Shown piece by piece: positions 17,275 through 62,064 of a DNA stretch of 64,000 bases. Within the stretch, counting starts at the first letter, position 1. Every line of letters begins with the position of its first letter. The notes beneath the pieces were generated by a model. It had not been told where the DNA came from and ran no database searches. It saw nothing but the letters and a program-made list of their open reading frames with translations. The position numbers and the translations under genes are program-made. Origin of the DNA: Thamnidium elegans. Taxonomy: Eukaryota; Mucoromycota; Mucoromycetes; Mucorales; Mucoraceae. The DNA lies in NCBI GenBank assembly GCA_025201345.1, contig JAIXMG010000038.1, positions 248,001 through 312,000 of the forward strand. The letters run 5' to 3'.

Positions 17275-18729
17275 CTAAATATCTGGCCATAGTGTACCTT
17301 CGTCTTTATTAACATTTCTAATATTATGTATATCTAATTTATCTTTATTTTTTGATTTTTTCTTTCTTTTTTTAGTTGGATTTTTATATTCAGGAAAATC
17401 TACATCACTTTCGTTTTTATCACTTTCGTTTAAAATTTCATTCTCATCATCTATTATCATACTATCTTGATTATTTTCTATAGATAAATTTAATAAATCT
17501 TTTTGTATTTTACTCAATTCGTTTAATTTTTTAACTTGTTCCATTTGATTTGTATAAACTATATCTATTAATCTCAGTTCATTTGGAAATTCAAAATTTT
17601 CATTAATCCATAGCTTATGATGTTCTTGAGTTATAATGTTAAATTTATCTGAAAACAACTGTATATTCTTCAATAAAAATACAACTTTTAATTGTAAATT
17701 TATGTATTTAATATCATCAGTTTTTATTATAGAGTTATTATTACTAAAACGTTTAAATTTATTATATAATTCTTTAAATTGATTTTCCACTACAGATCTA
17801 AAACTTCCAAATACTTTATTATAATGTTCTTCTTGTGCATTTAATGCAATACCATTTTCCTTTCTTATTGGATAGAAAAAGTTTTTATCATCTAAATTAA
17901 TATTTTTATCTTTACATAAGTTCTCAAACTGTTTTATAAATAGAGTATAACCTCCATCCAATGCTACACAATCTTGTTCTTTAATTTTATTATACAATTT
18001 CATATTTAAAAACATACCACCATCAGAGCTATTACCACAAAGTTGACTATCTGATAAACTTAATACCATTTCATTAATATCTATTAAAACTTGTGTTCTA
18101 ATTCCTGATGATTTTAATTTGTAAGACCATTTTTTTTGCGTAGATATATCAGGTCTATCATATTCAATTGTAGTATCGTGCCCATCGAGCATAGTGGTAA
18201 TGTTTTTATAATTTTTAGGATTTTTAATTAATGCAGATAATATTCTTATTTTTATATTACTAAACATATTATATAGACAATAATTTACATATTTATTTAA
18301 AGATTCATAATTAGTTATCCAAAATTTTTTATAGACAGCATAAAATGATGAATGTGGCATATATTTCTTAATATTCTTGGATGTAAAACCAGAGGTTAAC
18401 TGATATAATAATAGTAAACCTTTTTCTATTTCCAAGTAAGGACCAGGATATTCTCTATGTGTATATAACATGGTTAGAAAAAAGAATACTGAAATATATC
18501 CTAATTTATTTGTTAATTCTTTTTTTACCTCTTCTATATTTTTTACATTTTTTAGTTCAGTACGATGTTTATATTTGTTTGTAATCTTTTTCCAGTCATA
18601 ACTTAAGAATTTCCATTCATTTAAAACTAATTTATTGATTTCAATTTTTAAATCTTTTTTATATTGTTTTATTTCTTCATTGTTTTTATTTATATATTCA
18701 TCCATAATTTCTACATCATCACCTATCAT
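17275..18729 (-). CDS. DDE transposase (PIF/IS5-like), C terminus replaced by CACTA end
   Basis: 484 aa as read. DDE_4-type catalytic blocks: TMLDGHDTTIEY near residue 180 (first Asp), QDCVALDGGYTLFIKQF near 255 (second Asp) and FGSFRSVVENQFKELYNKF near 315 (Glu). Upstream there is a helical DNA-binding-like region with GYISVFFFL and PGPYLEIEKGLLLLYQLTSG. The tail is acidic then very Lys-rich (PTKKRKKKSKNKDK), a likely nuclear-localisation signal. The last codons (TLWPDI) are in fact the CACTA terminus, and the native chromodomain lies at 10609-10791. It is a distant paralogue of the gene at 59975-61402. Confidence 0.8.
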   Translation of the reverse strand: MIGDDVEIMDEYINKNNEEIKQYKKDLKIEINKLVLNEWKFLSYDWKKITNKYKHRTELKNVKNIEEVKKELTNKLGYISVFFFLTMLYTHREYPGPYLEIEKGLLLLYQLTSGFTSKNIKKYMPHSSFYAVYKKFWITNYESLNKYVNYCLYNMFSNIKIRILSALIKNPKNYKNITTMLDGHDTTIEYDRPDISTQKKWSYKLKSSGIRTQVLIDINEMVLSLSDSQLCGNSSDGGMFLNMKLYNKIKEQDCVALDGGYTLFIKQFENLCKDKNINLDDKNFFYPIRKENGIALNAQEEHYNKVFGSFRSVVENQFKELYNKFKRFSNNNSIIKTDDIKYINLQLKVVFLLKNIQLFSDKFNIITQEHHKLWINENFEFPNELRLIDIVYTNQMEQVKKLNELSKIQKDLLNLSIENNQDSMIIDDENEILNESDKNESDVDFPEYKNPTKKRKKKSKNKDKLDIHNIRNVNKDEGTLWPDI

Positions 18730-34680: not shown

Positions 34681-35178
34681 ATTATTACGTATTTTCCATT
34701 AACCAGATTATGTACAATATTTTTACAATCTTTTGGGTTTTTGGTTAACTGTGGTCTAAGTAATCCGAAAAATTTATTTTTATTATTACGCACATTAGTG
34801 AGAATTAAATGTCTTTCAAATGAAGTATTAACTATGTCCTATGTGTATATATTCGAGAAGTAGAAGCCGGATGAAAACACAGAATTTTAATACTCATATA
34901 GTTATTGCTGTAGCTTGTTGAAAAAAGTAACAAAACTATCATTCGATGCAGATTTTTTGTGGCTTTCTAATGATATATTTTTTGTCCGGGTCGGAGTCCA
35001 TTTAATATTTAATTCGGTGTTTAAACGCTTTTCCGGGCCGGATTTTAATTATAGGGATTTTTGCATTAAGTAAAAAAGACGCGTAAAAATAGCGGCTGCA
35101 ACTTTGTCACTTACATATTTTTAATTATTTCATTTCCTATCTAGTATTTCACGCTGGAACCTATTTTGTACCAGACCC
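34681..35178. repeat. Left-end arm of family A copy 1 (inverted against 35542-36040)
   Basis: About 500 bp forming an imperfect inverted repeat with 35542-36040. No genes. Ends at the terminal sequence TTGTACCAGACCC. Confidence 0.8.
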
Positions 35179-35541
35179 TAACAGAATTATTAGAAAACAT
35201 GTTTTCATCCACTACTTTAAGAATTATAAATGCTAAAAAAATAAATCCAATAGGTTTTAAAAATATCACATTATTTTTAGATGGTCATGATAGTAGAATA
35301 GATTACAAAGAAAAAGATATAAAGAAAAGAAATTTTTATTCTTATAAGTTCAAGAACTCAGGTTTAAGGACGCAAGTCATATATGATGTAAATGAGTTTG
35401 CAATTTATGTTTCCGATAGCAAACCATGCAAAAATTATAACGATGGACAAATGTTTTTAGATATGAAATTAGAGAATAAACTAAGTCAAAATGATTGTAT
35501 AGCATTTGATGGCGGCTATTATTATTATATTGAAAAATTTA
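35179..35541 (+). pseudogene. 363-bp fragment of a DDE-chromodomain transposase gene trapped between two inverted transposon ends
   Basis: Nearly identical to 60354-60716 within the gene at 59975-61402 (one seen difference, AATCCAATAGG against AACCCAATAGG). It codes for the first catalytic block (LFLDGHDSRIDY) up to the second (IAFDGGYYYYIEKF). Both ends are cut sharply where family A termini begin. Confidence 0.88.
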
Positions 35542-36039
35542 GGGTCTGGTACAAGATAGGTTCCAGCATTAAATGCTAGATGGGAAATGAAATAATTAAA
35601 AATATGTTAGTGACAAGGTTGTAGCCGCTATTTTTACGCGTCTTTTTTACTTAATTCATAAATCCCTATAATTAAAATCCGGCCCGGAAAAGCGTTTAAA
35701 CTCCGAATTAAATATTAAAAGGACTTCGACCCGGACAAAAAATATATCATTAGAAAGCCACAAAAAATCTGCATCGAATGATAGTTTTGTTACTTTTTTC
35801 GACAAGCCACAGCAATAACTATATGATTATTAATATTCTGAGTTTTCATCTGGCTTCTACTTCTCGAATATATACACATAGGACATAGTTAATACTTCAT
35901 TTGAAAGACATTTAATTCTTACTAATGTGCGTAATAGTAGAAATAAATTTTTCCGATTAATTAGGACACAGTTAAACAAAAACCCAAAAGATTGTAACAA
36001 TATCGTACACAATCTAATTGATGGTAAATTCTTAATAAT

Positions 36040-52264: not shown

Positions 52265-53393
52265 TTACTTTTCCACGAAAACTTCTTTCTGCCAACAAGC
52301 AAGCAAAACTATCTTTTCTGCAGTTTCTGGTTTCAATCGAGCCCTTTTGTTATTTATGGTATGTTTTGCTTGTGAAAATAGTCTTTCAGATGGTACGCTT
52401 GTGGCGGGTATAGACAAATACTTTCTAGCAAATAAAGACAACGTTGGATAAAGTTTTTCGTGCTGTTTCCAAAACTTCAGCGGCTTAGTTGCATACAACT
52501 TCCCTAGTTTAATGTTTGCATCATCATCATCATAATCATGTTCATTACTGTCACTGTCTACTAAAAAAATCCATTAGTCAATATTATCAATATTTAAAAT
52601 AAACAAACTTTTTACCTTCTTGCTGTCGATTAATCTCTAGTCCCTCTCTGCCGAACATTTGTGTATGGTCAGTTTGAATATAACTTAATAATTCTACATT
52701 TGATTCAACATAATTTTTGATTATGGGACTTCGACTATTATCATATCCAGCCAAAAACACTTTTCTCTGTCTTCTCTGGTTTTGTCTTAGTCTTTTTTTA
52801 GATATGCCAATGATATTATCGTCATCCTCGTCCTCATCTTCATCATTGTTGCTATCATCTACATTGTAGTTCTCAATGCCATCATTACTACCAAATGTAC
52901 CAGTTGTTGGAATAGCTTTTGTTACGGAATATCCCGTAATAAAAATATTTAGTATTCATGTTGAATAACAACTAATGATGAACTAACTGTTGGCTTACCT
53001 GTTCCGACTCTGAACGCTAATGCTTCTGAACTATGGCTTGTACTTAGTTCATGAGCGTAGTAATCGGTCAAAAATAAACTAAAAGACCTCTTACATTGTG
53101 ATATTTGTGCTTCTATTATATTAGTCTCCCAATCTTGCTCTTCCCTGAAAAAAAAAAAAAAAAAAAGTCGCCAATAGGTACATTTAGCAATCAAAGTAAT
53201 AATCGCACGGGAAAATATATCAACATACCAATAACTAAATTTCAGGCTTGGGTCAACCATAGTTGCACAAGCATAAACATCTGTTAGATCAGTTCGACTA
53301 TAGTACTTTGAAAGTTTAGTCATAGTGAGATCAATAGCAGCCGAAAGTGAAGGATTTTCTGTTGGAATTTTTCCAACCTGGTGAAGAGATCAT
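52265..53393 (-). pseudogene. hAT transposase, C-terminal exons
   Basis: Exons with GT-AG borders. The most 3' encodes the hATC dimerisation domain (LFARKYLSIPATSVPSERLF, then TINNKRARLKPE) after an acidic linker. Upstream are an exon ending MFGREGLEINRQQE (about 52613-52920) and one with YYSRTDLTDVYACATMVDPS and a short intron at 53145-53240. This part of the gene looks undamaged. The exon reading upstream ends at an acceptor beside MITE copy 2. Confidence 0.85.
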
Positions 53394-59542: not shown

Positions 59543-59609
59543 CTGGGTATTTTATTTTATAGGTAGGGAGAACATTTTGTATTGCTCTAAATTTTATTTT
59601 TTTCGCAGT

Positions 59610-59888
59610 TTATTGATTTTCCATGTTATGCATATAATCATCAATAAATGCTGTATCATTGAAATCTTCTTGCCAAATCCATTCATTATATGTATCATCA
59701 TATCCTTTCCATTTAACATAAAATTTAATTCTTTTTTTAAATTTTCTATGCTTTAAAATTCTTTCAACCTCAAAACTATCTTCATCTGTATAATTATTAT
59801 CTTCTATATCCATATTATTTATTGTTAAATTACCACCGTTATTATCATTAAAATAATTTCTAATAAATTCATCTTGTTGATTAGTCAT
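59610..59888 (-). other. Stand-alone chromodomain open frame in the left inverted repeat
   Basis: 92 codons beginning ATG (MTNQQDEFIRNYF), identical as printed to the last 92 residues of the transposase at 59975-61402. It is the mirror copy produced by the inverted repeat. If transcribed it would give a chromodomain without nuclease, but whether it is expressed cannot be seen. Confidence 0.6.
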
Positions 59889-59974
59889 ATCTGTAATCCT
59901 TAAAATATCAAATTCATATATAATGTTATTTATATTATTATTTTGAAAAACTGAAAAAGATTCAATATAATAAA

Positions 59975-61402
59975 ATGGATGTCATTATTAATAATGAGCT
60001 TACAAAGATTAATATCAAATATTGGCAATTTTTGGATAGAAACTACCCAATAAAAATATCTAATTACAAACATAGAGAAGAAATTAAGAATATTACAAAT
60101 ATACAGAGAATTAAAAAGGAATTAGTTGAAAAGTTAGGTTACACTGCTGTATTCTTTTTCTTAATTAATATTTTTGTTAAATATGATTATAAAGGTCCAT
60201 ATGTATTTATGGAAAAAGGTCTATGTATATTATATCATTTAGTTACAGGAAAATCTATTCGAGATATGAATGATTATATACCTTATACATCTTTTCATGC
60301 AATTTATAAGGAATTTTGGGACAATAACAAGAACGAATTAAATAGAAATATAACAGAATTATTAGAAAACATGTTTTCATCCACTACTTTAAGAATTATA
60401 AATGCTAAAAAAATAAACCCAATAGGTTTTAAAAATATCACATTATTTTTAGATGGTCATGATAGTAGAATAGATTACAAAGAAAAAGATATAAAGAAAA
60501 GAAATTTTTATTCTTATAAGTTCAAGAACTCAGGTTTAAGGACGCAAGTCATATATGATGTAAATGAGTTTGCAATTTATGTTTCCGATAGCAAACCATG
60601 CAAAAATTATAACGATGGACAAATGTTTTTAGATATGAAATTAGAGAATAAACTAAGTCAAAATGATTGTATAGCATTTGATGGCGGCTATTATTATTAT
60701 ATTGAAAAATTTATTGAGAATTGTGATAGAAAAGGAAATGATAAAATAAATATAAATAATTTTACTTTCCCAATAAGAAAAAATAGAAATGTTGATTTAA
60801 ATGATAGTGAAATACTATATAATGAGACATTTGGCAGCTTCAGAAGTAAAATCGAATCATGCTTTGGATATCTTGGTAATAAGTTTAAAAAATTTAATAA
60901 TAATGAGAGCTCAACCAAAGTGACTGATATAAAAATCTATAACTTACAGTTAAAATTATCGCTGCTATTACTAAATATTAGAAAGTTTTGTGAGTTATAT
61001 AATATACCTGCAAAACCTAACCATTTATTGTGGATTAATGATAACTTTGATTATCCTAATCCTAATAAAAATAATAATATAAATAACATTATATATGAAT
61101 TTGATATTTTAAGGATTACAGATATGACTAATCAACAAGATGAATTTATTAGAAATTATTTTAATGATAATAACGGTGGTAATTTAACAATAAATAATAT
61201 GGATATAGAAGATAATAATTATACAGATGAAGATAGTTTTGAGGTTGAAAGAATTTTAAAGCATAGAAAATTTAAAAAAAGAATTAAATTTTATGTTAAA
61301 TGGAAAGGATATGATGATACATATAATGAATGGATTTGGCAAGAAGATTTCAATGATACAGCATTTATTGATGATTATATGCATAACATGGAAAATCAAT
61401 AA
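59975..61402 (+). CDS. DDE transposase fused to a chromodomain
   Basis: 475 aa, no intron, ATG at 59975 just inside the left inverted repeat. The N-terminal helical region has LGYTAVFFFLINIF and KGPYVFMEKGLCILYHLVTG. DDE_4 (PIF/IS5-like) blocks: ITLFLDGHDSRIDY (Asp ~159), SGLRTQVIYDVNEFAIYVSD, NDCIAFDGGYYYYIEKF (Asp ~235) and FGSFRSKIESCFGYLGNKF (Glu ~294). A linker with HLLWINDNFDYPNP follows, then an acidic Asn-rich stretch and the chromodomain at ~420-468 (FEVERILKHRKFKKRIKFYV, KWKGYDDTYNEWIWQEDF) with the usual aromatic positions. The C-terminal chromodomain suggests targeting to marked chromatin, as in chromo-integrases of some Ty3 elements; that role is inferred. A paralogous gene is at 17275-18729 plus 10609-10791. 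Confidence 0.88.
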   Translation: MDVIINNELTKINIKYWQFLDRNYPIKISNYKHREEIKNITNIQRIKKELVEKLGYTAVFFFLINIFVKYDYKGPYVFMEKGLCILYHLVTGKSIRDMNDYIPYTSFHAIYKEFWDNNKNELNRNITELLENMFSSTTLRIINAKKINPIGFKNITLFLDGHDSRIDYKEKDIKKRNFYSYKFKNSGLRTQVIYDVNEFAIYVSDSKPCKNYNDGQMFLDMKLENKLSQNDCIAFDGGYYYYIEKFIENCDRKGNDKININNFTFPIRKNRNVDLNDSEILYNETFGSFRSKIESCFGYLGNKFKKFNNNESSTKVTDIKIYNLQLKLSLLLLNIRKFCELYNIPAKPNHLLWINDNFDYPNPNKNNNINNIIYEFDILRITDMTNQQDEFIRNYFNDNNGGNLTINNMDIEDNNYTDEDSFEVERILKHRKFKKRIKFYVKWKGYDDTYNEWIWQEDFNDTAFIDDYMHNMENQ

Positions 61403-61505
61403 ACTGCGAAAAAAATAAAATTTAGAGCAATACAAAATGTTCTCCTTCTTATTATATTTTGGTTTTAATGTTAATTTTGAATCGCTTTTATCAGAAAAAT
61501 AGGTA

Positions 61506-61957
61506 AGGTGAACAATTGCTTATAATGAAACGTATAACTTTAGCAAAATATATTCTGAATTCAAAAAGTAAAAGTTTATCAAAATAATATAATACAAACG
61601 AGAATATGTTTCTTAGAATTAACAATGCTTACTAATCAATTTTTGATGTAAAAAATAAATAATATTTGTTTCTAAGAATTATATTATCACATGACCATCA
61701 CATTTCAAATGGGTCTGATTTATAAATGTGACAAAAACGATTAGTTATTACAATAATCTTTTTTATGGTCATGTGATAATATAATTCTTAGAAACAAATA
61801 TTATTTATTTTTTACATCAAAAATTGATTAGTAAGCATTGTTAATTCTAAGAAACATATTCTCGTTTGTATTATATTATTTTGATAAACTTTTACTTTTT
61901 GAATTCAGAATATATTTTGCTAAAGTTATACGTTTCATTATAAGCAATTGTTCACCT
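61506..61957. mobile_element. Foldback/MITE-like palindrome with 193-bp arms
   Basis: Arms 61506-61698 and 61765-61957 are reverse complements as far as I compared (AGGTGAACAATTGCTTATAA at the outer ends, ATTATCACATGACCAT at the inner) around a 66-bp loop. It has no coding capacity and lies in the same hAT intron as the DDE-chromodomain element. Confidence 0.88.
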
Positions 61958-62064
61958 AGGATCTTGTTCTTGTTGATACAGCAACAGTTTCATAATAGTA
62001 TTATCTAATTTTTAAACATTTTTTTATTGATATAAAATAGGAGGTAAAATTATAGAAAGCTTAC

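Follow-up and report, generated by a model that had tools for sequence, protein, structure and literature searches.

The window, a stretch of 64,000 nucleotides of Thamnidium elegans DNA (C32:248001-312000 of a 34.1 Mb assembly in 64 contigs), contains an asymmetric DDE_4 DNA transposon with two foldback modules, one that carries the gene and one that forms a terminal palindrome. The composite covers 2390 bp at 59567-61956, in which the gene foldback (arm, core, arm) is followed by a 61-nt spacer and then by a 450-nt palindrome. We consider it fairly probable that the two modules are moved together, that their arms recombine by a host pathway, that the coding arms keep the gene whole and that unlike ends are needed.

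Layout of the element and its mobile unit

An inverted-repeat search of the window found 59567-59944 and 61068-61445 to be complementary at 100% over 378 nt each, with 1123 nt between them. An earlier note on this DNA had described inverted repeats of ~375 bp that extend into the gene, which agrees with these measurements. It had also ended the element at 61445, which is too short, as the mobile unit reaches 61956 and has the TSD TAG on both sides. The features are as follows.

59564-59566: TSD TAG, left
59567-61956: mobile element, complete (2390 bp), with a 3-bp TSD at these ends in 6/6 testable copies
59567-59944, minus strand: left arm, 378 nt, identical to the right arm when reverse-complemented; holds the outer end GGAGAAC
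59610-59888, minus strand: mirror ORF, 92 aa, with its own ATG and a chromodomain at 59631-59774 (ORF list, Pfam); putative protein
59945-61067, plus strand: core, 1123 nt between the arms; both orientations occur among copies
59975-61402, plus strand: transposase, 475 aa, with a DDE_4 domain (D160, D236, E294), a linker and a chromodomain at residues 422-469
61068-61445, plus strand: right arm, 378 nt, encoding residues ~365 to 475; terminates in GTTCTCC
61446-61506: spacer, 61 nt, kept in the six family-1 copies that retain that side
61507-61698, plus strand: palindrome inner arm, 192 nt; begins with GGTGAAC
61699-61764: palindrome loop, 66 nt, inverted in copies C31 and C64
61765-61956, minus strand: palindrome outer arm; terminates in GTTCACC, the outer end of the element
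61957-61959: TSD TAG, right

Further copies, named here by contig, were obtained by a protein search of the whole assembly with the window transposase, which gave 74 matches. Flank alignment of the family that includes the window copy (family 1) placed the 61-nt spacer and then the ~450-nt palindrome beyond one arm in C32, C10, C5, C31, C64 and C23. Outside the other arm, and outside the palindrome, the flanks have no relation among copies. The outer ends of the family-1 composite are GGAGAAC and GTTCACC. TSDs of 3 bp were found at the composite ends in 6/6 testable copies (C32 TAG, C10 AAG, C5 TGA, C31 TAT, C64 TAA and C3 ATT). They were found in 0/6 copies at the ends of the gene module alone (C32, C10, C5, C31, C3, C17) and in 0/6 at the ends of the palindrome alone (C32, C10, C5, C31, C3, C23). 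Because TSDs surround the pair in 6/6 copies and surround neither half, the composite is the mobile unit. The four family-1 copies without an interruption measure 2390-2396 bp and the family-2 copy C3 measures 2496 bp; the C64 copy is interrupted by an insertion. A DNA search of this genome with the spacer plus half of the palindrome, which gives a lower bound, produced at least 12 matches and no solo halves; the matches fall in 6 places, each contiguous with an element copy, whether truncated or not.

Two other structures were seen in the window. At 34681-36039, inverted repeats with 501-nt arms (92.8% alike) lie around ~357 bp of family-1 transposase, and at 52298-52489 (minus strand) there is a hAT dimerisation domain, for which the genome search gave just two places.

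Transposase, families and genomic distribution

The earlier note proposed a DDE_4 nuclease fused to a C-terminal chromodomain, and Pfam found both domains in the 475-aa ORF: DDE_Tnp_4 at residues 160-310 (E 3.9e-6) and Chromo at residues 422-469 (E 4.2e-10). These were the only Pfam domains in the transposase, and neither a replication domain nor a reverse transcriptase was among them. The PF13359 score of 27 bits exceeds the cut-off of 24.8 and classes the enzyme as DDE_Tnp_4-type. In an alignment of 60 sequences, for which 59 of 120 listed homologues were used, D160 and D236 are invariant and E294 occurs in at least 90%. An AlphaFold2 model built from the 60 aligned sequences (mean pLDDT 89.4) predicts a compact catalytic part to about residue 360, followed by a linker that is poorly ordered, then a helix and finally the chromodomain. 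The repeat arm starts at residue ~365, just past the predicted catalytic fold, so the repeat boundary coincides with a domain boundary. F422, W443 and Y446 align with three aromatic positions of HP1 and, by the cage positions of HP1, we take them to be the aromatic cage of the chromodomain.

The DDE_4-chromodomain fusion (PF00385 + PF13359) was present in 66/120 of the homologues listed (137 were found), with hosts that include Mucor hiemalis, Apophysomyces sp., Circinella minor, Entomortierella lignicola and Dissophora ornata. The fusion itself is common among homologues. In this respect the earlier note, which knew the fusion from Ty3 integrases but not from PIF/IS5-like DNA transposons, is incomplete.

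Family 2 comprises copies on C3, C17 and C22 plus a near-identical segment on C6, and has 53% protein identity to the window transposase. Its layout is the same as that of family 1, with arms of 377-378 nt, a 40-nt spacer (in both C3 and C17) and a palindrome. C3 is the only complete family-2 copy; the C17 palindrome is truncated and the C22 and C6 copies carry insertions. The last two lie in a 3.2-kb segment (L067, C22:458700-461900; L068, C6:804800-809060) that occurs near two contig ends, 99.8% alike, and in which the left arm of the family-2 copy is interrupted by an insertion of ~1.3 kb. As coding arms occur in two families that are only 53% identical, the comparison of several copies proposed in the earlier note shows a family trait and not a local rearrangement.

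A tree of 106 transposases was made from 101 listed homologues (>380 aa) and five sequences from this genome. Families 1 and 2 fall into one six-row clade (SH-aLRT 100) with P0001, P0002, P0004 and P0006 of Mucor hiemalis, and families 3, 4 and 5 of this genome fall outside it. No arm-like inverted repeats bordering the gene were found in the examined loci of families 3, 4 and 5. Since the families with coding arms share one clade and those outside it are without arms, a single origin of the coding arms would be enough to account for this tree.

Some members of the other families have features of their own. Family 4 has a copy in the window at 17347-18645 (minus strand), a second chromodomain-type DDE_4 transposase with an open frame of 487 aa and without coding arms. 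Another family-4 locus (L014, C23:472924-477219) has 241-nt inverted repeats at a distance (96.7% alike), which are absent from its sister copies. Two family-5 elements (L019, C3:8.8 kb; L020, C20:458 kb) lie between direct repeats of ~250 bp, and a stretch next to the C9 copy of family 3 resembles these repeats at ~90%; the arrangement may be LTR-like or composite.

Chromodomain-type DDE_4 places are concentrated near contig ends, with 23/35 at most 50 kb from an end, zones that make up at most 18% of the genome. The 35 places were merged by hand from the 74 matches, and some are fragments without a chromodomain match. DDE_4 places without a chromodomain, merged by hand into 16 from 18/41 matches, had 1/16 in these zones (Fisher p 6.5e-5 versus chromodomain-type). 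Taken by itself, this contrast would speak for targeting. The near-full DDE_3 (Tc1-type) places, picked by hand among the matches listed (165 matches; 150 of 406 candidates scored), had 25/48 (p 0.26 versus chromodomain-type), or 25/46 (p 0.36) without two C34 places that are both far inside. Clustering at contig ends is thus common to DDE_3 places and is not evidence for chromodomain targeting, and the idea that the chromodomain directs the element to chromosome ends was dropped. Among 20 contig ends examined, two (L050 and L066, at the ends of C4 and C35) have GGGGTT runs and one TTAGGG apiece, so TTGGGG is a possible telomere repeat.

Paired arms, inverted cores and the mirror frame

Judging from comparison of the copies, the paired arms evolve in concert. 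Within family-1 copies the arms differ at 0 (C32), 1 (C10), 1 (C5), 0 (C31) and 0 (C64) of 378 positions, and within family-2 copies at 0 (C3) and 0 (C17) of 377, while 127-131 substitutions and 63 gap columns separate the two arm sets. C8, C23 and L009 are tabulated as single arms and were excluded from the pair comparison, and the fragment at C32:283166 is without arms. In C17 (L008) the chromodomain tryptophan equivalent to W443 is a glycine in both arms, a change absent from C3. This W-to-G change is probably damaging and seems to have spread from one arm into the other. The palindrome behaves in the same way. Among 5 variable sites in the first 156 nt of its arms, inner and outer arm agree in 6/6 copies, including at changes private to C10 and to C5. 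The two differences that gene-module arms do not share, one in C10 and one in C5, imply that homogenisation is not instant.

The core is found in both orientations. As assembled, the 3' end of the gene points towards the palindrome in C32, C64 and C3, and the 5' end does so in C10, C5, C31, C17 and C22 with its C6 duplicate; C23, with one truncated arm only, was left out of the count. C32 and C10 differ at 1/1123 core positions and have opposite orientations. C64 is closest to C31 (2/13 variable core sites differ, versus 6 for C5 and 6 or 7 for C10 and C32), and its core is opposite in orientation to those of C31 and C5. By a parsimony count on these sequences, at least three core inversions would be needed: family 1 requires at least two and family 2 requires one. 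The palindrome loop is likewise inverted in C31, and in the part retained in C64, relative to C32, C10, C5 and C23, and the loop of C17 is inverted relative to C3.

The chromodomain is present twice, as had been reported, and the inverted left-arm frame is open with its own ATG, encoding 92 aa with a Chromo match (Pfam, E 8.5e-11). C3 and C17 of family 2 have a mirror ORF of 87 aa, also with its own ATG. The start Met was considered as a sign that the ORF is used, and was rejected because its conservation is no better than a shared protein motif explains. At this position 68/115 aligned sequences have M, 46 have L, I or V, and 1 has R; the Met is also found in families 3 and 5, which lack coding arms. 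Within the clade of six rows to which the coding-arm families belong it is present in 6/6, a count that we discount because these relatives are not independent. The suggestion of two proteins by design is not sustained by this distribution. The companion proposal, that repeat identity keeps the mirror frame open, agrees with concerted evolution of the arms.

Short chromodomain ORFs elsewhere were compared with the mirror frame. Five of the eight start at the same Met (P0121, P0123, P0124 of Mucor hiemalis, P0126 and P0127), and these may be mirror arms. P0122 and P0125 extend further upstream and may be transposase pieces, and P0128 starts differently. Along its whole length the family-2 mirror ORF matches P0129, annotated as a partial Thamnidium elegans protein, at 100% identity, and the extra N-terminal residues of P0129 match the C3 mirror frame across the inner arm boundary. 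Ahead of the mirror frame in the window (59945-59974, minus strand) there is an acceptor-like sequence, CTTTTTCAG, with a family-2 counterpart, TTATTATAG, directly behind which P0129 begins. A spliced mirror transcript is conceivable.

Mechanism, alternatives and comparison with known elements

Arms that are close together and nearly identical could pair with each other. Recombination between them would invert the core if accompanied by a crossover, and would convert one arm to the other if not; the pathway would most likely be ordinary host homologous recombination and gene conversion. Inversion would swap one chromodomain tail for the other with the transposase intact. As the C-terminal tail lies entirely within the arms, the transposase would be whole after either a flip or a conversion. 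The mirror copy would serve as a spare cassette, in use after each flip and under intermittent selection, and since it would become the used tail after flips, its frame would stay open without a separate protein. The module ends can be written A...A and B...B, and only the outer A and B are seen used in movement. The transposase would therefore be expected to need two unlike ends, which would account for why neither half is seen moved alone despite its perfect inverted repeats. This unlike-ends rule is suggested by the lack of solo modules in one genome, for which the DNA search is a lower bound.

Each family-1 half ends in its own perfect inverted repeats, GGWGAAC, and the pair might be read as a gene element and a palindromic MITE inserted side by side by chance. 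We give this hardly any credence, in view of spacers that are constant (61 nt in the six family-1 copies keeping it, 40 nt in C3 and C17), TSDs around the pair only and solo halves that the DNA search did not find. It is very unlikely, if somewhat less so, that the apparent inversions are assembly artefacts. While assemblers can be misled by inverted repeats, the arms here are short at 378 nt, 64 contigs for 34 Mb suggests long reads, and the same inversions occur in two families and in the loops.

Two further readings deserve more weight, and we regard both as improbable. In one, hairpin-templated copying, each transposition would re-template the stems from their own other strand, leaving the modules homogenised and randomly flipped. 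Homogenisation and flipping do occur in both foldback modules and not in the coding one alone, the palindrome sits at a terminus as hairpin copying would want, and the pattern expected is the same as that from recombination. The transposase, however, has the sequence and fold of an ordinary DDE enzyme, with short TSDs and no replication domain in Pfam, and host recombination accounts for the same data. A complete hairpin-copying life cycle with a DDE transposase, its stems rewritten and its loops flipped or not in every round, is slightly less probable again. The other reading, of about equal standing with hairpin-templated copying, is that translation of the mirror ORF gives a separate chromodomain protein, which would act as a regulator of the complete transposase or as its competitor. 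It draws on the mirror ORF with ATG in family 2, on the start Met shared by five of the eight short ORFs, one of them from Mucor hiemalis, and on the match to P0129. Concerted evolution alone would nevertheless hold the frame open without use, the Met belongs to a motif common to families 3, 5 and many homologues, and the source names for these proteins are hypothetical or unnamed. We accordingly prefer recombination of the arms by the host, acting on two modules that move as one.

In the chloroplast inverted repeat, ycf1 crosses the repeat boundary and has a partial mirror copy, and both isomers coexist. The element likewise has a gene that crosses a boundary, a partial mirror copy of it and both isomers, and differs in being a transposon and not an organelle genome. 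With PIF/Harbinger and IS5-like DDE_4 transposons it shares the DDE_4 nuclease and a 3-bp TSD, and it differs from them in its C-terminal chromodomain, its coding 378-nt arms and its terminal palindrome. PIF/Harbinger elements encode a second, Myb-like protein; among unspliced ORFs of at least 50 aa, those inside the element are the transposase and the mirror ORF, and besides these only overlapping frames that are antisense or short. PIF/Harbinger TSDs are of the types TNA or ANT in an excerpt of PMC12477816, and the six triplets given above fit TNA in 2/6 and ANT in 1/6. As only 3/6 fit either type, the element was not filed as PIF/Harbinger proper.

Foldback elements (FB, Galileo and Tetris), as described in an excerpt of PMC4079207, also have very long inverted repeats and a middle segment. 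For Tetris and Galileo the same excerpt reports arms that contain internal repeats, tandem or direct, while no direct-repeat family with two copies inside one arm was found here (seed 9, minimum length 14). The arms of the present element differ in being coding and in lacking such internal direct repeats, and an intact transposase gene crosses one of the arm boundaries. Chromodomains are named in Mavericks and chromoviruses in the excerpted part of a fungal survey (PMC10799480). With chromoviruses (Ty3 type) and Mavericks the element shares a DDE-type recombinase that carries a C-terminal chromodomain. The element differs from chromoviruses as a small DNA transposon of 2390 bp, without reverse transcriptase or LTRs. 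A genome paper in which T. elegans is mentioned gives counts of PIF/Harbinger elements for Mucorales, and its main text, as excerpted, is without the term 'chromo' (PMC7928374). In the open-licence literature, a scope that mostly leaves aside subscription journals and preprints, we found no description of DDE_4-chromodomain DNA transposases or of coding arms of this kind.

The element offers a natural example of a gene placed relative to inverted repeats in such a way that inversion does it no harm, and as a transposon it moves as an asymmetric foldback pair. Arm recombination can be read directly from the copies within a single genome, which makes inversion and conversion rates measurable. 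The results also point to a broad group of chromodomain DNA transposases in Mucor-like and Mortierella-like fungi.
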